In this document: in pieces, positions 11,948 through 61,655 of the stretch
Numbering within the stretch: the stretch's first letter is position 1
How the letters are laid out: each line of letters opens with the position of its first letter
Assembly (NCBI GenBank): GCA_021732995.1
Contig: JAKFWA010000030.1
Location: forward strand, 1 to 64,000
Length of the DNA stretch: 64,000 nucleotides
Direction: 5' to 3'
Source of the DNA: Planctomycetaceae bacterium
GTDB lineage: Bacteria > Planctomycetota > Planctomycetia > Planctomycetales > Planctomycetaceae
Notes under the pieces: model-generated
Database searches by the model: none
Told to the model about the DNA's origin: nothing
Seen by the model: only the letters and a program-made list of their open reading frames with translations
Position numbers and translations under genes: made by a program

Positions 11948-12081
11948 TCGTTGTTTCGTGTTAAGCAGCTTCTTTTGATGCTTCCAGTCAGGGAATCCGC
12001 ATCATCGGAGTGAGGTCCGCTTCACGCAAGACATCCTCTGCATTCCGCGAAGCTTCCGGAGCCCTTCGAAGCTTCCGGAGC

Positions 12082-13020
12082 CCTTTGATATCAATGAAAG
12101 AGGGCAGTTGCTAAAGCGGAGCTGTTGCCCCAAGTTGGGCGAGGGAGTTTGCGTTTCCTCAGTCCCTCAGGAGCAGCACGATGATGTATCTGGGAATCGA
12201 CCAGCACGCACGCCAACTGACGATCTCGCTACGAGACGAGAATGGCGACGTAATCCAGGCACGGCAGGTGTCGACGCAGCCCGAGAAGGTGCAAGCCTTC
12301 TTCACCGCGTTGACACGCGACTGTGCCGCGCGGGGCGAGTCGTTTATCGCGGTGGTGGAAGTCTGCGGGTTCAACGACTGGCTGCTCAAGATGTTGCAGG
12401 ATTATCGCTGTCACCGCGTGATCCTGATTCAGCCGGAAGAACGCAAGAAGCAGAAGACAGACCGGCGCGATGCGTCGTCTCTAAGCGAGTTGCTGTGGTT
12501 GAATCGTGCGCGTTTCGTGGCCGGCAAGCCTGTGCGCGGCTTGCGGCAAGTGGAGATCGGGAGCACGTCCGATCAAGAGGATCGGCGTCTGACAACGCTC
12601 CGGCAAGAGGCCAGCCAGGCTCGGACGCAGATCATCAACAAGATCAAACACCTGTTGAGACGGCATAATCTGCAATGGAGCCTGCCGACGAAGACGTTTC
12701 CCACACGGGAGGCACTGGCCTGGCTCACGCAATTGAGCTTACCGACAATTGATCGGCTGGAGATGGATTATCTCATTGTGGATCTGGAACAAGCGCAACA
12801 GCGGATCTTGGACCTGGAGCGCGTGATTCGAGAGCGTTGCGGCCAGAATAAGCAGGCGCATTTGCTGTGTTCGATGCCCGGTATCAGTTACTTCACGGCG
12901 ACGTCCTTGGTGTGCCGCGTGGGCCGTGTCGAACGCTTTCCACGAGCTTGTAGCCTGGCGAACTATTGGGGACTGACACCGGGCCTTCGGTTCCGTAGTG
13001 CCATGACGCCTTGTGGGTAG
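12082..13020 (+). mobile_element. IS110-family element, copy A (longest copy; right end degraded)
   Basis: The left end begins CCTTTGATATCAATGAAAG, about 99 bp ahead of the transposase start. This left end is repeated eight more times in the window. The transposase is nearly complete but ends abruptly, and no right end matching the short copies (35695 and 43611) was found downstream. Just outside the left end, a 19-bp direct repeat (CGAAGCTTCCGGAGCCCTT) occurs twice in tandem at 12048-12066 and 12067-12085, touching the element. Confidence 0.8.
12181..13020 (+). CDS. IS110-family transposase, C-terminally truncated
   Basis: The 279-residue product starts after a good ribosome site (AGGAG, 7 bp). 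Its N-terminal RuvC-like DEDD domain has visible acidic positions: YLGID near residue 6, VVEVCG near 60, and TDRRDA near 100. The C-terminal transposase_20 region is recognisable (SMPGISYFTA, NYWGLTPG). It stops about 40 or more residues before the usual end, just after the GLTP motif, where the catalytic serine region should follow. IS110 enzymes use the DEDD site plus this serine with a bridge RNA to recombine ends, so this copy is probably inactive. It is the only copy here with more than the first third of the gene. Confidence 0.85.
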   Translation: MMYLGIDQHARQLTISLRDENGDVIQARQVSTQPEKVQAFFTALTRDCAARGESFIAVVEVCGFNDWLLKMLQDYRCHRVILIQPEERKKQKTDRRDASSLSELLWLNRARFVAGKPVRGLRQVEIGSTSDQEDRRLTTLRQEASQARTQIINKIKHLLRRHNLQWSLPTKTFPTREALAWLTQLSLPTIDRLEMDYLIVDLEQAQQRILDLERVIRERCGQNKQAHLLCSMPGISYFTATSLVCRVGRVERFPRACSLANYWGLTPGLRFRSAMTPCG

Positions 13021-25830: not shown

Positions 25831-26004
25831 GGAACGGTCTTTGGTCGAATGCGTTGTTGGTGAGGCTGAACGGTTCGGACCCTAGTCTACGAGCGTGTCC
25901 GAGAAGGCGGAATGAGGCTGACGGCCAAATCCAATCACGTTGGAATCCTCTGTGCTGACGGGTCGACGGTTGTAGGTCCAGAAATGTCACTCTTTGCCAG
26001 TGTC

Positions 26005-26244
26005 CCTTTGATATCTATGAACGAGGGCTGTTGCGAAAGCCAGACTGTTGCCTCAGGTTGGCGAGGGAGTTTGCGTCGCAATTTCCCCGTCCATAGTGAG
26101 CAGCACTGGATGTATCTGGGAATCGATCAGTACGCACGCCAACTGACGATCTCGCTGCGCGATGTAATTCAAGCATGGCAGTTGTCGACGCAGCCTGAGA
26201 GGGTCATGTCTTAATACGCGTTGACGCGAGAATGTACCTCGCGC
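26005..26244 (+). mobile_element. IS110-derived remnant, copy B
   Basis: It begins CCTTTGATATCTATGAACG, carries the same left end and the first transposase codons (MYLGIDQYARQLTISLRD), then decays. It has an internal deletion and stop codons that are shared with copy E at 39688 (GTCATG, then TTAAT, then CGCGTTGACGCGAGAATGTA). It ends against the stop codon of the ADP-ribosylglycohydrolase gene. Confidence 0.8.
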
Positions 26245-35465: not shown

Positions 35466-35694
35466 ATTCCTATCGAGTCGTTGATTACCGCGTTTAGTCG
35501 GGCGTGATTGGGGGTGAAGGGCAGGGCAATTGCATGAAATTCAAACACCTGTGAGCACTTTGAGAAGGTAGTCTGGATTGCGGGCGGCATTTTGCGTTTG
35601 GCTCGCAGACTTTTCCGGGTTGTCTGTTCCTGGTTCAACAGGCTCAAGGCGATACGACGAATCTGGCTGAACGCTCGGGTCGAGTGGCCGATAC

Positions 35695-35993
35695 CCTTTG
35701 ATATCAATGAAAGAGGGCGGTTGCGAAATCGGAACTGTTGCCACGCTTGTAGTGTGAGTTTGCGTCGCAATCTCTTCAGTCCAAAGGAGCAGCACGATGA
35801 CGTATCTGGGAATCGACCAGGTTACACGCCAAAACTGACGATCTCGAACGCAACCAGTCTCGGGGTCGAGTTCCACCGTCAGTTGTTAACCTTTCAAGAC
35901 AGGACAGACTCATCTTGAGTCTGTCCCGCTTTACTATTTTGACGCTCAATCATTGAGCCATCGCTTTGACGATTCCCGATGGTTGAACTCCGT
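35695..35993 (+). mobile_element. IS110-derived miniature element, copy C (both ends present)
   Basis: About 299 bp. The left end (CCTTTGATATCAATGAAAG) and the first transposase codons are followed by a second part shared only with copy F at 43611. The shared part runs from GATCTCGAACGCAACCAG through a perfect hairpin (GGACAGACTCA / TGAGTCTGTCC, 35902-35926) to GGTTGAACTCCGTC. The shared end suggests it is the true right end. Copy D starts at the next base. Confidence 0.75.
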
Positions 35994-36161
35994 CCTTTGA
36001 TATCCATGAAAGAGGGCCGTTGCGAATACGGAACTGTTGCCCACGTTGGCGAGGGAGTTTGCGTCTCAATTTCCGCGGTCCAGAGAAACACGATGATGTA
36101 TCTGGGAATCGACCAGCACGCACGCCAACTGACGATCTCGCTGCGAGACGGGAGTGGCGAT
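35994..36161 (+). mobile_element. IS110-derived remnant, copy D, directly abutting copy C
   Basis: It begins CCTTTGATATCCATGAAAG immediately after the right end of copy C. It contains the left end plus about 20 transposase codons (MMYLGIDQHARQLTISLRDG) and then runs into unrelated coding sequence. The head-to-tail join recreates the right-end/left-end junction expected of a circular or tandem IS110 intermediate. Confidence 0.75.
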
Positions 36162-39684: not shown

Positions 39685-39687
39685 CCC

Positions 39688-39933
39688 CCTTTGATATCTA
39701 TGAAAGAGGGCAGTTGAAAATCGTAACTGTTGCCCAAGCTGGCGAGGGAGTTTTGTTTTTCCTCAGTCCAAAGGAGCAGCACGATGATGTATCTGGGAAT
39801 CGACCAACATGCACGCCAGCTGACGATCTCGCTGCGAGACGAGAGTGGCGACGTGATCCAAGCACGGCAAGTTTCCAAGCAGCCTGAGAGGGTCATGCCT
39901 TAATGCGCGTTGACGCGAGAATGTACCTCGCGC
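39688..39933 (+). mobile_element. IS110-derived remnant, copy E
   Basis: It begins CCTTTGATATCTATGAAAG and keeps the left end and about 40 transposase codons. It then shows the same internal deletion and stop codons as copy B (GTCATG, TTAAT, CGCGTTGACGCGAGAATGTA). The shared damage means B and E descend from one already broken copy. DNA from 39934 to 40070 has no recognisable gene. Confidence 0.8.
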
Positions 39934-40070: not shown

Positions 40071-40805
40071 TCACAGGATCTGGCCATCGCGAGTGCGTTC
40101 AATCGCGCCGTTGCGCCAGCGACAAATCTCAGAATGCTCAAGACGCGGATCGTCTTTGAACCGGGTGTTGCCGATGGCTTTGTCGACGACTTCCAGTTGC
40201 AGCAGTTCGTCGGGATACGGCTGAAGTATCTGGGCTAAAGCGTCTGCGTCTTTGATGGTGTGATTCATCCAAATGGCATGCTGTTCGGTCGGTAGTATCA
40301 CTGCTTCACGATGATGGAACAGAGTGAAGAACGGCGATGGTTCGCACGTGACGATCGTGCATGAGTCGTGAACTTTGCCGTCAATCGTCGCCCGATCCCA
40401 CAGTCCGGCGAACGCATAGAGGGGCTGGTCCGTAGTTGTCACTCGGTACGCTGTCTTGTTGGGAGCCACCCCTTGCCATTCATAGAACGCGGACGCTGGA
40501 ACCAAGCAGCGACGATCTTTGACCGACGCTCGGAAGGCGGGTTTCTTGCTCAGCTCTTCGCCAACAGCGTTGAAGGTCGTGTACTTCGAGCTGATCTCCT
40601 TGGACCAACGGGGGGTGAGCCACCACTCAACCATCGCCATTTCGCGCGCTCCCTCTTCGTTGAAGCGAATGATTGGCACTTGCGACTTCGGGCAGACGTT
40701 GAATCGAGGGAATTCAAAGGACGTCTGCAACTCGACTGGCAATGTGGCGTTGAACGTCCTGGCGATCTCTGCGGCAGAGACTTGGATCACATAGCGTCCG
40801 CACAT
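40071..40805 (-). CDS. SOS response-associated peptidase (SRAP, YedK/HMCES family)
   Basis: The 244-residue protein begins MCGRY, giving the catalytic Cys2 after removal of Met. It carries the family's conserved FYEW (Glu) and the LFHHREAVILP region (His). YedK/HMCES proteins form a thiazolidine crosslink to abasic sites in single-stranded DNA and protect them. The gene follows umuC by 3 bp on the same strand, so it is very probably co-transcribed with umuDC. That links abasic-site shielding to translesion synthesis. Length is normal and all key residues appear present. Confidence 0.93.
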   Translation of the reverse strand: MCGRYVIQVSAAEIARTFNATLPVELQTSFEFPRFNVCPKSQVPIIRFNEEGAREMAMVEWWLTPRWSKEISSKYTTFNAVGEELSKKPAFRASVKDRRCLVPASAFYEWQGVAPNKTAYRVTTTDQPLYAFAGLWDRATIDGKVHDSCTIVTCEPSPFFTLFHHREAVILPTEQHAIWMNHTIKDADALAQILQPYPDELLQLEVVDKAIGNTRFKDDPRLEHSEICRWRNGAIERTRDGQIL

Positions 40806-40808
40806 ACT

Positions 40809-42071
40809 TCACCCGGTTCGCGCGTGAGGAAGATCAGCCCAAGATGTCGTGTACTGAGGCGAGAGTTGATTGAAGCGGGCTTGCCAATCGGATTCGTTCG
40901 TGCCTTCGGCTCCGAAGCGCACTGCACCTCGACCGTGAAGTTGATTGATCTTATCCACAGCGTCCATCAATGCCGCCGATTTTTGGCGAGCGGCTTTGTC
41001 ATCGAACAATGTGAGTTGAGCGGACGCAGCAGGTCGCAAGTCCGTCAGTAGGCAGCCGGCTTTGCGGTAGTCAATCCCCTCACGAAACATCTTCTCAACC
41101 AATGGGCGGGCCGCAGCCAGTAGCTCTGGCGTCGAGGCTGTGGCTGTCTCAAGCCGAATACCACGTGCGGGGAAGTGCTTTGCCGACTGATTGAAGTGGC
41201 TGGTCTCCAGCCAGACTTGTAGGTGACCGGCAACCGAGCCTTGCTTGCGGACCTTGACCGCAGCTCGCGCCACATAGGTCGCAACGGCTTGTTGCATCTC
41301 GTCCAACGTCAGCACGGATCGACCAAAGGAACGCGAACAGCAGATCGCCTTCTTTGCCGGCGTGAATAGCTCAAGCGGCAAGCAGCTTTCGCCACGCAGT
41401 TCTCGGACAAGTTTTAGACCAACGATCGTCAACTCTCGCATTATCCAAGCGTCGTCAGCGTCCCGGAGTTGCAAGGCGGTCATGATGCCCGCAGCTTGAA
41501 GCCGAACCGTGTGTTTGCGTCCAATGCCCCAGACGTCGCCGACAGCCGTGGCCGCGAGAGCGTCTGTTTGATCTGCGGATGTCAGCAGCGTCTTCACTCC
41601 GCTGGGCAACTTCTTGGCGACGCGATTGGCGAGCTTGGCCAACGCTTTGCTAGGAGCGATGCCGACACAGGTTGGAATGCCGGTCCATTGTTTGACCGTG
41701 GCTCGCACTCGCTGGCCGAAGTCGAGCGGGTCTTGCTGTTCCGCTGTCGGCACATCCAAGAAGCTCTCATCGATCGAGTATGGCTCGATGTTGTCGGCGA
41801 ATTGACGGAGCGTGGTCAGGACTCGCGAACTCATATCACTATAGAGTGTGTAGTTGCTGGAGAAGACCTGGATGCGATGCTTCCTGATTTCCCGTTCGAT
41901 TTGAAAGACGGGAATACCCATCGGGATGCCGAGGGCTTTGGATTCGTTGCTTCTCGCAACGACGCAGCCATCGTTGTTGGACAGCACGACGATGGGCTGA
42001 CCTTCGAGCGCAGGCCGAAAGACACGTTCGCAGCTTGCGTAGAAGTTGTTGCAATCAACCAGTGCGAACAT
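40809..42071 (-). CDS. umuC: Y-family DNA polymerase, UmuC-like
   Basis: The start at 42071 ([18 protein letters not shown]) matches the family N-terminus. The 420-residue protein has the catalytic acidic residues in LVDCNNF and YSIDESFLD, a helix-hairpin region ([18 protein letters not shown]) and the little-finger region. The C-terminus ends with the DUF4113-like stretch (LTLFDD, RFGAEGT) typical of UmuC rather than DinB. The product would be the catalytic subunit of polymerase V with UmuD. It begins 5 bp after the umuD stop and is followed by the SRAP gene. Confidence 0.93.
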
Positions 42072-42076
42072 GAACC

Positions 42077-42508
42077 TCACCGCTGAAACTGATGTATGAC
42101 GGAGGTCACAACGCCCCACACTTGGACTTCGGATTCAGGACCAAGTTGAATCGGTGGTTGGTTGGGATTGTCTGCGACGAGCCGTAGTTGCCCGCAGCGA
42201 TCGTGGTATCGTTTGACGGTCATTTCGCCATCCACCACCGCAATCACAATCGCACCGTCGCGAGCCTGCAAAGCACGATCGACAATCAGCATGTCGCCTG
42301 ACTTGATGCCAGCATCAATCATCGACGTTCCAATCGCACGAACGAAAAACGTCGCGGCGGGATGGGCCACCAACAGCTCGTGCAGGTTGAGCTTCTCTTC
42401 GGCGTAATCGTCAGCCGGGGATGGAAAGCCTGCCGACACGGGCATCGTGGCCAGTGGGATCAGCTCCGACGAAAATTCATCGACGGAGAAAACAGCAGTG
42501 ACACGCAT
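42077..42508 (-). CDS. umuD: UmuD-type translesion polymerase subunit
   Basis: The start at 42508 gives a 143-residue protein of normal UmuD length. The self-cleavage site is visible as A26-G27 (VSAGFPSP). The serine/lysine dyad is S62 (GTSMIDAGI) and K99 (GEMTVKRY). After RecA-stimulated cleavage UmuD' binds UmuC to form the mutagenic polymerase V. It is the first gene of a three-gene minus-strand run with umuC and SRAP. I found no clear LexA box upstream, but planctomycete LexA sites are not well defined. Confidence 0.93.
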
Positions 42509-42779
42509 GGATGAGACTCTGAGATCAATGTGTGGTCGAGCATTCGTGGCGACGAAGCAGAGCTTGATCAACTCTGCAAGACGCAGAAGCATTGAAGCGA
42601 CACCGTCCCACTTTCGGCAGAGGAACAAAGGCCACTGCTTACTTGCATCGTATTCACCCGCTCCACTAGAAGTTCCATGGAGACGTTGACCTCCATTGCT
42701 TGGTAGCCCGCTGCGGACGATGCCCTTCAAAACCGCAGCGGGCTCATTCTTGCGCAGTTAGCCAACAGGGATACTGACG

Positions 42780-43268
42780 ATGCCAGAACTGACTCCCAGC
42801 AGCACGTTCGATCTCGTTGATGGAGACATTCTCTTTCAGGATCTCAATGGGGCGGGTGGTGACGCGATCGGTGCCGTAACTGCTGGCTTCCACGGGGCAA
42901 AAATTTCCCACAACGGCATCTACTTCGGCACGGCTGGTCGAGGATTTGTGATCGAAGCCATCTATCCGCGCGTGACAGTGACTTCGATCATTCGCTACCT
43001 CGGACGCTCACATGACGCACAAGGCCGCGCTGCGGTGTTCGTCGGTCGCATGAAGCCGGCTTATCAGCAGCTTATCCCCGCAGCGATCAGCGAGGCGTTT
43101 GCAAGACTTTCCTTGCCCTATGACCGTGTCTTCACGTCTGGAGAAGATGCCCTTTATTGCAGCGAACTGATTGCAGACTCGTTTAAGTATGCCAACGGCG
43201 GCGTCACAGTCTTCCCAGAGAATCCGATGAGCTTCAGAGAATCCGATGAGCTTCAGAGAATCCGATGA
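42780..43268 (+). CDS. YiiX-like papain-fold peptidase, C-terminus cut off by a tandem repeat
   Basis: The product matches the YiiX/YebB-like permuted papain family. His44 (KISHNGIYFG) and Cys127 (ALYCSELIADSF) form the expected dyad, and GDILFQ starts the fold. Relatives hydrolyse peptidoglycan or lipid amides. After FPENPMSFR the frame enters a 19-bp unit repeated four times and meets TGA at 43266. Downstream DNA still encodes a family-like tail in the original frame (DPATGEILPYWQHYFD to RYGFVTGWE, stop at 43457). With one repeat copy the gene would give an intact protein of about 206 residues; now it yields 162. Confidence 0.8.
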   Translation: MPELTPSSTFDLVDGDILFQDLNGAGGDAIGAVTAGFHGAKISHNGIYFGTAGRGFVIEAIYPRVTVTSIIRYLGRSHDAQGRAAVFVGRMKPAYQQLIPAAISEAFARLSLPYDRVFTSGEDALYCSELIADSFKYANGGVTVFPENPMSFRESDELQRIR

Positions 43269-43292
43269 GCTTCAGAGAATCCGATGAGCTTC
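43217..43292 (+). repeat. 19-bp tandem repeat, four copies
   Basis: The unit AGAGAATCCGATGAGCTTC occurs four times without change at 43217, 43236, 43255 and 43274, followed by a partial AGAGATCC. As 19 is not a multiple of three, each copy is read in a different frame. The third copy supplies the stop that truncates the YiiX-like gene. Confidence 0.95.
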
Positions 43293-43610
43293 AGAGATCC
43301 GGCGACAGGCGAGATTCTTCCCTACTGGCAACATTACTTCGACATGATGGGCACCACAGTCCCCGAAGGCGAAGCCGGATCGAATCCTGGCAGTCAGTCG
43401 CTCTCTCCAAAACTCGACATCGTCCACCGCTACGGATTCGTCACCGGCTGGGAATAACTGGCGGCCGGTAACAATTGATTTCGCATCCGAGCAACAACGA
43501 GGTGAGCTCCGATTCAAGTCGCTCGCAAGGACATCTATCGCCGTTGCCGGAGACACCACTATCACCGACGCCTTCACCTTGCTTCCAAATCAGATCGAAG
43601 CGTTCAATGC

Positions 43611-43903
43611 CCTTTGAAATCTTTGAACGAGGGCTGTTGCGAAAGCCGGACTGTTGCCTCAAGTTGGCCAGGGAGTTTGCGTCGCAATTCCCCCGAACAT
43701 CGTGAGCAGTACGGAATGTATCCGGCAATCGATGAGCGCTCTTGCAGACGATCTCGAACGCAACCAGTCTCGGAGTCGCGTTGCACTGTCAGTCTTTCAC
43801 TTTCAATACAGGACAGACTCATCTTGAGTCTGTCCTGCTTTACTATTTTGACGCTCAATCATTGAACCATCACTTTGACGATTCCCGACGGTTGAACTCC
43901 GTC
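43611..43903 (+). mobile_element. IS110-derived miniature element, copy F (both ends present)
   Basis: About 293 bp, beginning CCTTTGAAATCTTTGAACG and ending GGTTGAACTCCGTC. The second half matches copy C, including the hairpin GGACAGACTCA / TGAGTCTGTCC at 43811-43835. The transposase start is damaged (ATGTATCCGGCAATCGATGA). It ends 4 bp before the stop codon of the DUF5131 gene. Confidence 0.75.
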
Positions 43904-43907
43904 GCGA

Positions 43908-44648
43908 TCACGCGGCGTCGTGTCGGCGGACTGCGTGCGGCCAGGCTTGGCGAACTTCGTCTTCAATCAGGCCATCAAACACGAGCTTAGTGCCGCTGTA
44001 GTACTGCTTGTGAAACAGAGCCACGCCAGCCGCGTCACACTCGTCGCGAATACTGCGCACACAGTCTTCGTTCATGGCACGACGCTTGTTTTTGCCCGCA
44101 CGCTCGCAACCAGTAATCACCCAGTCCAGCTTCTGAATGCGGCGACCAAAATGGACCGGTCCGAGCAGAGGTTCCGCTGACACGAAGCGGATGGCTGCCG
44201 GAATCTTTGCCAGAACGTCCAGGCGCTTGATTTGGCTCTGGTCCTCAATCGTCGTACCCAACCAGACGTTTGGGTAACCCTCGTTCCAATCCTTGGGAAG
44301 CCGATCCCGAATCAACTCCGGACGCTTGGTAAGAATCAGCCAATCCAGATTCCCGCACGCTTTGATGATCTCCCACGCCTCGTCTCTCCATTCATCAGCA
44401 CCAGGGTGAAAGAAGTCCGACATTGAACAAGTGAAGACCCGAAACCGAGTTCCCTCGTTGATTGCTTTTTGATTCCAGCGGGCAGGGTTGTCCCATGTCT
44501 TTGTGCGCATCGGCCCGTGGAAGGGTTCACGGCCGGAGCGTTTCATGATTGCCGCGATGTAGCAGTACTGGCAGGCCGCCGAGACTTTGTTGCAGCCCCA
44601 CCAAGGATTCCATGTGTGATGTGTCCAACCAATCTTTGAGAATAGCAT
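43908..44648 (-). CDS. DUF5131 (phage Gp37/Gp68-like) protein
   Basis: This 246-residue protein matches DUF5131 from its start (KIGWTHHTWNPWWGC). Three cysteines (C19, C26, C29 in GCNKVSAACQYCY) resemble a radical-SAM-type cluster motif with wider first spacing. Conserved stretches such as DFFHPGADEWRDEAW and WLILTKRPE are present. The family occurs in phages and mobile regions and is predicted to be a radical SAM-like enzyme, but no reaction is established. It stands alone here, next to IS110-derived copy F. The family call is firm and the function open. Confidence 0.9.
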   Translation of the reverse strand: MLFSKIGWTHHTWNPWWGCNKVSAACQYCYIAAIMKRSGREPFHGPMRTKTWDNPARWNQKAINEGTRFRVFTCSMSDFFHPGADEWRDEAWEIIKACGNLDWLILTKRPELIRDRLPKDWNEGYPNVWLGTTIEDQSQIKRLDVLAKIPAAIRFVSAEPLLGPVHFGRRIQKLDWVITGCERAGKNKRRAMNEDCVRSIRDECDAAGVALFHKQYYSGTKLVFDGLIEDEVRQAWPHAVRRHDAA

Positions 44649-46510: not shown

Positions 46511-46674
46511 CGTTGAACAGGAGACGTTGAACAGGAGACGTTGAACAGGAGACGTTGAACAGGAGACGTTGAACAGGAGACGTTGAACAGGAGACGTTGA
46601 ACAGGAGACGTGGAACAGGAGACGTGGAACAGGAGACGTGGAACAGGAGACGTGGAACAGGAGACGTGGAACAG
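46511..46674 (+). repeat. 14-bp tandem repeat, about 12 copies of two variants
   Basis: Seven copies of CGTTGAACAGGAGA (46511-46608) are followed by almost five copies of CGTGGAACAGGAGA. The single T/G change is fixed in each block, which points to two rounds of local amplification. It lies just downstream of the M41-like peptidase gene, and its frames on either strand encode only low-complexity peptide. Confidence 0.95.
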
Positions 46675-51300: not shown

Positions 51301-51403
51301 GTATAGTCTTTCGATTTTTAATCTCTACGACCTGCGTTGATGACAGTTTGGCCTTCAGGCTCAATTGGGCCCAGAACTCGCATTTTGATCAAGCGTTCTG
51401 TGA

Positions 51404-51632
51404 CCTTTGATTTCTATGAACGATGGCTGTTGCAGAATCGGAACTATTGCCCCAAGTTGTTGAGGGAGTTTGCGTTTCCTCAATTCCAAGGAGCAGCACG
51501 ATGATGTATCTGGGAATTGACCAGCACGCACGCCAACTGACGATCTCGCTGCGAGACGAGAGTGGCGACGTGATTCAAGCGCGGCAGGTGTCGACGCAGC
51601 CCGAGAAGGTTCAAGCGTTGACTCGCGACTCT
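51404..51632 (+). mobile_element. IS110-derived remnant, copy G, left border of the defence block
   Basis: It begins CCTTTGATTTCTATGAACG and keeps the left end and the first 40 or so transposase codons (MMYLGIDQHARQLTISLRDE) before decaying. It ends about 145 bp beyond the stop of the subtilase gene. With copy H it brackets 51.8-59.5 kb in direct orientation. Confidence 0.8.
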
Positions 51633-59523: not shown

Positions 59524-60072
59524 CGCGAACGAGTCCGCCTGGAACCAGGCAGCTACGAATTAGTGGCAAATGTGGAAAGAGCCTAGGGTGTAGGCATGGA
59601 TGAGAAGTAGTCTGCGGAGCGTTTGGGATTAGTGCCCATGAGCCCACTTCATCTGATGCGTCGTCACGATTTGGTCGACCACCGAAGATCGATCGTGCAT
59701 CCATCCCTCTGGCGATCACTAATCTTCCGTCAACGCTAAGAGGTGCTGAATCGACTGCGATAAGCTCCTTTGATATCCATGAAAGAGGGCGGTTGCGAAG
59801 ACGGAACTGTTGCCCACGTTGGTGATGGAGTTTGCGTCTCAATTTCCGCGGTCCAGAGAAACACGATGATGTATCTGCGAGTCGAACAGCACGCACGCTG
59901 ACGATCTCGCTGCGAGACGAGAGGGCGATGTGATTCAAACTCGGCAGGAGTCGCATCTATTCTTGCGGCACGTATTTGAGCAGAGTACGCTCGGAACTAG
60001 GTGATTTGGCCCCAGGATTCGAATAGACCCTAGGATCAAGATCATTCTATGTCAGACCGCGCAACATGAGAC
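59524..60072 (+). mobile_element. IS110-derived remnant, copy H (59767-59955), in gene-free DNA
   Basis: The remnant begins CCTTTGATATCCATGAAAG at 59767. It keeps the left end, with a TTTCCGCGGTCCAGAGAAAC tail shared with copy D, then a damaged transposase start (MMYLRVEQHAR). It is lost by about 59955. The rest of the gap has no recognisable gene. It marks the right border of the block begun by copy G. Confidence 0.75.
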
Positions 60073-61405: not shown

Positions 61406-61655
61406 ACTTTGGTTTCTATGAAAGAGGGCTGTTGCTAAGAACGGATTGTTGCTTCAAAAGCGGGAGGGAGTTTGCGTCTCCTCAGTCTATAAGGCGCCGC
61501 ACGATGGTATATCTGGGAATCAGCCAGCATGCACGCCAGTTGACAATGTCGCTACGAGACGAGAGCGGCAATGTGATTCATGCGGCAGGTGTCGACGCAG
61601 CCTGAGAAGGTGCGAGCCTTCTTGGTCGCGTTGACCCGAGACTTCGACTCGCGCC
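61406..61655 (+). mobile_element. IS110-derived remnant, copy I
   Basis: It begins ACTTTGGTTTCTATGAAAG and keeps the left end and about 45 transposase codons with several changes (MVYLGISQHARQLTMSLRDE) before decaying. It lies just upstream of the DUF2934 gene's start and about 115 bp from the repeat protein's stop. The 300 bp around it contain no other gene. Confidence 0.75.

Follow-up and report, generated by a model that had tools for sequence, protein, structure and literature searches.

The question raised by this locus is whether a 19-bp tandem repeat inside a YiiX-like peptidase gene is a reversible on/off switch, as suggested in the initial annotation, or the trace of a slippage event that broke the gene. 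We favor the reading of a recent loss-of-function slippage allele, that is, an ordinary slippage-made pseudogene and not a built-in switch, and put its probability at roughly 75%. The window denotes the whole 64-kb stretch of DNA that was analyzed, and the features concerned are the following.

42780-43268, forward strand: interrupted YiiX-like (Peptidase_C92) gene, with a 162-residue product that ends in the repeat and retains H44, E59, Y114, and C127
43216-43291, forward strand: 19-bp unit repeated in tandem, four identical copies, a net gain of 57 bp over a presumed one-copy ancestor
43266-43268, forward strand: premature stop codon TGA of copy 3; the ATG at 43265-43267 overlaps it and leads into a wrong frame
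43292-43297, forward strand: CAGAGA, a partial fifth copy that directly repeats the first 6 bp of a single unit at 19-bp spacing
43292-43457, forward strand: C-terminal tail in the original frame, 54 codons plus stop, downstream of the premature stop

The array consists of four exact head-to-tail copies of CAGAGAATCCGATGAGCTT, with the six matching bases of CAGAGA directly 3' of it, and TRF described the region as 4.6 copies at 43216-43301 with 98% matches and 1% indels. The four exact copies reported in the initial annotation are thus present inside the Peptidase_C92 gene, and only their start, given there as 43217, differs by one base from our 43216, which is a choice of register. With up to 3 mismatches allowed, the unit matched four times in the window against a shuffle mean of 0.01, and none of 100 shuffles of the window gave four matches. 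A search of the whole 9.39-Mb genome that tolerated up to 2 mismatches found it at these four sites only.

The three additional units amount to 19 codons, and the frame of the tail is therefore that of the start of the gene. Since 19 is not a multiple of three, however, the reading frame changes from one copy to the next, and because all three frames of the array are read and one of them holds a TGA, translation ends at 162 residues despite the in-frame gain. The stop had been placed in the third copy, and the open reading frame indeed ends there. Past the array the original frame is open from 43292 for 54 codons, with the stop at 43457, and what it encodes is homologous to the C termini of relatives, as expected from the earlier description of a good C terminus of about 54 codons. 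Products computed for one to nine copies agree with what had been proposed for the two smallest arrays: one copy gives the full protein of 206 residues with the conserved, homologous tail, while two copies shift the frame and give 217 residues with a foreign tail. Every number from three to nine gives the same 162 residues, with the stop at the same place, and in a computed endless array every frame has one stop per 19 codons.

A comparison with homologues points to the ancestral state. At the array, the alignment shows a 19-column gap in every one of the six homologues, which bears out that repeat expansion broke the gene. Five of them, from Vibrio, Saprospiraceae, Cupriavidus, and two other members of the window's phylum, are of 43 to 48% identity, read straight through PM[S/T]F, and have in common a tail of the form VP.G.PG.NPG or near it, while the sixth, at 31% identity, has the same gap and a further small gap nearby. 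Because the gap is found in all six, the ancestor most likely had a single copy, and a net gain of three units is the simplest history. No exact array of at least three copies (units of 4 to 150 bp) was found in 17 homologous loci, all of them distant at 48% identity or less, and apart from the window's own gene, none of the 10 family matches had a stop inside the matched part. In each of the 16 homologous loci compared, that of the window not counted, the open frame extends at least about 60 residues beyond the cysteine motif.

The assignment to a YiiX-like family was confirmed by a match to PF05708, Peptidase_C92 (YaeF/YiiX), over residues 13 to 140 (E value of 4.4e-15; 56.6 bits against a cutoff of 27). 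The tail lies beyond this match, in the intact Vibrio homologue too the match stops at position 121 of the 166 of the profile, and the tail alone matched no family in Pfam. Escherichia coli YiiX (2if6) was the best sequence match in the PDB (E value of 0.0014), and the interrupted gene shares with it PF05708 and the catalytic residues; however, the score against the NCBIfam YiiX equivalog was 40.1 bits, well under the cutoff of 216, and by these scores the gene is to be placed in Peptidase_C92 at a distance from YiiX itself. H44, E59, Y114, and C127 are invariant in all seven aligned rows (the read-through and the six homologues), and all four precede the premature stop. The available excerpt of PMC3142127 describes permuted catalytic His, Glu, Tyr, and Cys residues for the C92 family, to which, by our reading, these four would correspond. 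The ancestral product would accordingly have been a YiiX-like amidase of the permuted papain fold, an activity suggested by its family and residues. One second C92 match, a weaker one, was found in the genome, on contig C85.

To see what the break removes, we modeled the read-through protein with AlphaFold2, with the TGA taken as W, eight sequences as input, and the insert included. The mean pLDDT was 82.6, falling to 49 at residues 151 to 160 and 54 at residues 161 to 170 within and around the insert (residues 154 to 172) and reaching 92 in the block of residues 211 to 220, which contains the last strand (212 to 218). In a Foldseek search with this model, 2if6 was again the top match (E value of 9e-11), and VIA-align superimposed residues 10 to 220 of the model on 178 of the 180 residues of 2if6 (Z of 20.5; rmsd of 2.6). 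Since the alignment runs through residue 220, the tail is part of the YiiX fold, and the likeness to E. coli YiiX thus includes the C-terminal part of the read-through model, whereas the gene in the window is interrupted before the C-terminal helix (181 to 189) and strand (212 to 218), both of which are absent from the translated 162-residue product. According to the excerpt of PMC3142127, a helix and a strand that follow the cysteine helix (helix G and strand 6 in a Bacillus relative) augment the conserved core, and the helix at 181 to 189 in our model would be the equivalent of helix G. As the product ends before these elements, the gene is a disrupted member of the family and does not encode a complete enzyme, and for the 162-residue product we consider misfolding or lack of activity most likely.

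Matches to the gene are few. They were found by protein search in 11 of 170 genomes of the family at an E value of at most 1e-5 and in 3 of 392 genomes of a phylum sample at an E value of at most 1e-12, the genome itself included in both counts, and the closest sequence elsewhere was that of Vibrio, at 48% identity. In the genus, two genomes were searched by DNA, this one included, and the other lacked the locus, as it also did in a protein search. No second strain of the locus was found in the genus, the 170 family genomes, the 392 phylum genomes, or collections of genome contigs, viral contigs, plasmids, and phages, although absence from the contig, viral, plasmid, and phage searches is weak evidence, as these may omit records very near the genome itself; beyond that genome, all of the searches together gave only homologues of at most 48% identity. 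The patchy matches, with the closest sequence coming from Vibrio, fit a gene that is dispensable and probably horizontally gained. The gene content of the genome suggests a planctomycete.

The surroundings of the gene were also inspected. Upstream, on the minus strand at 40071-42730 and divergent from the YiiX-like gene, lie a Peptidase_S24 (UmuD-like) and an IMS (UmuC-like) gene, and the gene beside this pair is one that we take, from its MCGRY start, to resemble the SOS-response SRAP/HMCES. A conserved neighborhood of SOS genes was not seen when the ORF lists of the Vibrio and Cupriavidus loci were examined by eye, and we therefore claim no functional link. An IS110-like relic starts about 150 bp downstream of the gene and was considered as a source of the 19-bp unit, but it was ruled out because the genome search found the unit in the gene only.

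Relics resembling the left end of an IS110-family element lie at 12079-12181, 26004-26076, 35694-35796, 35994-36067, 39687-39783, 43595-43682, 51391-51500, 59767-59840, and 61407-61503. The whole genome has 15 such matches, nine on the window's contig C51 (all in the window), five on C64, and one on C46, all on the plus strand of their contigs. The relic at 12079 precedes an IS110 transposase ORF (12181-13020; PF01548 and PF02371), and two exact copies of a different 19-bp unit, at 12048-12085, run into this left end. MITE-like derivatives of this IS110 element, about 300 bp long, are present at 43609-43918 and 35691-35994 in the window and at 19208-19516 on contig C64; the 43609 copy shows identities of 80% and 86% with the other two and contains the inverted repeat GACAGACTCA...TGAGTCTGTC. 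No such derivatives were found in the second genome available for the genus. Another tandem array, of a 14-bp unit in 11.7 copies with 99% matches, is located at 46511-46674.

A survey of exact arrays with units of 7 to 120 bp in 949,013 sampled bases (46 stretches, the window included) listed 100 rows against 51 in one single-base shuffle, so most short arrays are near chance. Units of at least 12 bp made up six of the arrays listed (the 14-bp array, which occupied two rows, counted once), and three of these are in the window, a clustering that concerns very few cases in a window chosen because of one of them. At least four copies of such a unit were listed for three arrays, with units of 19 bp (the one in question), 14 bp, and, elsewhere, 15 bp. 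Arrays like the 19-bp one are uncommon.

The history that we propose for the allele begins with a one-copy gene in which the unit, starting with CAGAGA, was followed by CAGAGA again 19 bp on. This 6-bp direct repeat at 19-bp spacing could have let the nascent strand slip and would have been the first substrate for slipped-strand mispairing, which may have duplicated the unit and then expanded it to four copies. The resulting gain would have kept the frame of the tail while the TGA of the array ended translation, leaving a product with its catalytic residues but probably inactive for want of the C-terminal helix and strand. The full protein could be regained by a single contraction of 57 bp. 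That the slippage was recent, as the initial annotation held, is supported by the exactness of the copies and the still homologous tail.

The undamaged tail is consistent with a very recent break but also with a switch that is often ON. A phase switch, in which frequent expansion and contraction of the array would maintain both ON (one-copy) and OFF cells, could further draw on the fact that going from four copies to one takes a single deletion between identical copies. We nevertheless consider it improbable, and the suggested reversible switch was not supported: one copy is the sole ON state among one to nine, the states of two to nine all lack the proper tail, and one-unit steps from four copies therefore never toggle the gene. 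The one-copy state retains just 6 bp of direct repeat, and a soluble enzyme, as this one may be, would not be a typical contingency gene. As in contingency loci, a product-altering repeat array lies in the gene; toggling by one unit, however, is possible only between one and two copies in our computation, with three, four, and five copies giving the same product, and the array is not common to the homologues, which are distant, at 48% identity at best. Tandem duplications in pneumococcal capsule genes are reportedly the subject of two papers, Waite 2001 and Waite 2003. The excerpt of PMC4243769 describes spontaneous tandem duplications in the pneumococcal capsule genes cap3A, cap8E, and tts that reversibly silence the ORF, and this is the nearest known case, since there too a duplication within an ORF silences it. 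Reversible loss is reported there, whereas here we have one genome and no variant, with four copies and an ON state at one copy only. In short-repeat contingency genes, insertion and deletion of repeat units turn expression on and off, as stated in the excerpt of PMC3711429; these loci likewise have a tandem repeat in the coding region and presumed slippage, but in the window a one-unit change from four copies never restores the gene. For insertions of up to 9 bases, reversion is expected at no more than about 1e-5 in the excerpt of PMC4022640. A slow, asymmetric, all-or-none switch of a YiiX-like (possibly lipid-amidase) enzyme, turned OFF by expansion and ON by a one-event contraction of 57 bp, would be compatible with the computed states, and we hold it to be very unlikely.

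The remaining alternatives concern the copy number and the product. The assembly is a draft of 135 contigs with a contamination estimate of 4.23%, and tandem copies can be miscounted, so the true number could differ; however, the whole array is only about 86 bp, ordinary short reads are longer than that, and the gene and the unit occur at a single place in the assembly, making an assembly or sequencing artefact a slim prospect. It is also unlikely that the gene has been remodeled or split, with the 162-residue piece being active or the tail being made separately and joining it. All four catalytic residues do precede the stop, one ATG overlaps it, and in the frame of the tail another, at 43284, would open a 57-residue ORF. 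Against this, the ATG overlapping the stop would be read in a wrong frame, the fold of the model is completed by the tail, as it is in relatives according to the excerpt of PMC3142127, and the 16 other homologous loci all continue well past the cysteine motif.

In conclusion, the locus, itself of minor interest, is most likely a recent slippage-made pseudogene. If the array were instead a switch, it would be a slow and asymmetric one in an apparently environmental bacterium. The case shows how a gene can be silenced by an array with a unit length not divisible by three, although the insertion as a whole is in frame, and it helps to distinguish contingency loci from pseudogenes made by slippage when genomes are scanned.
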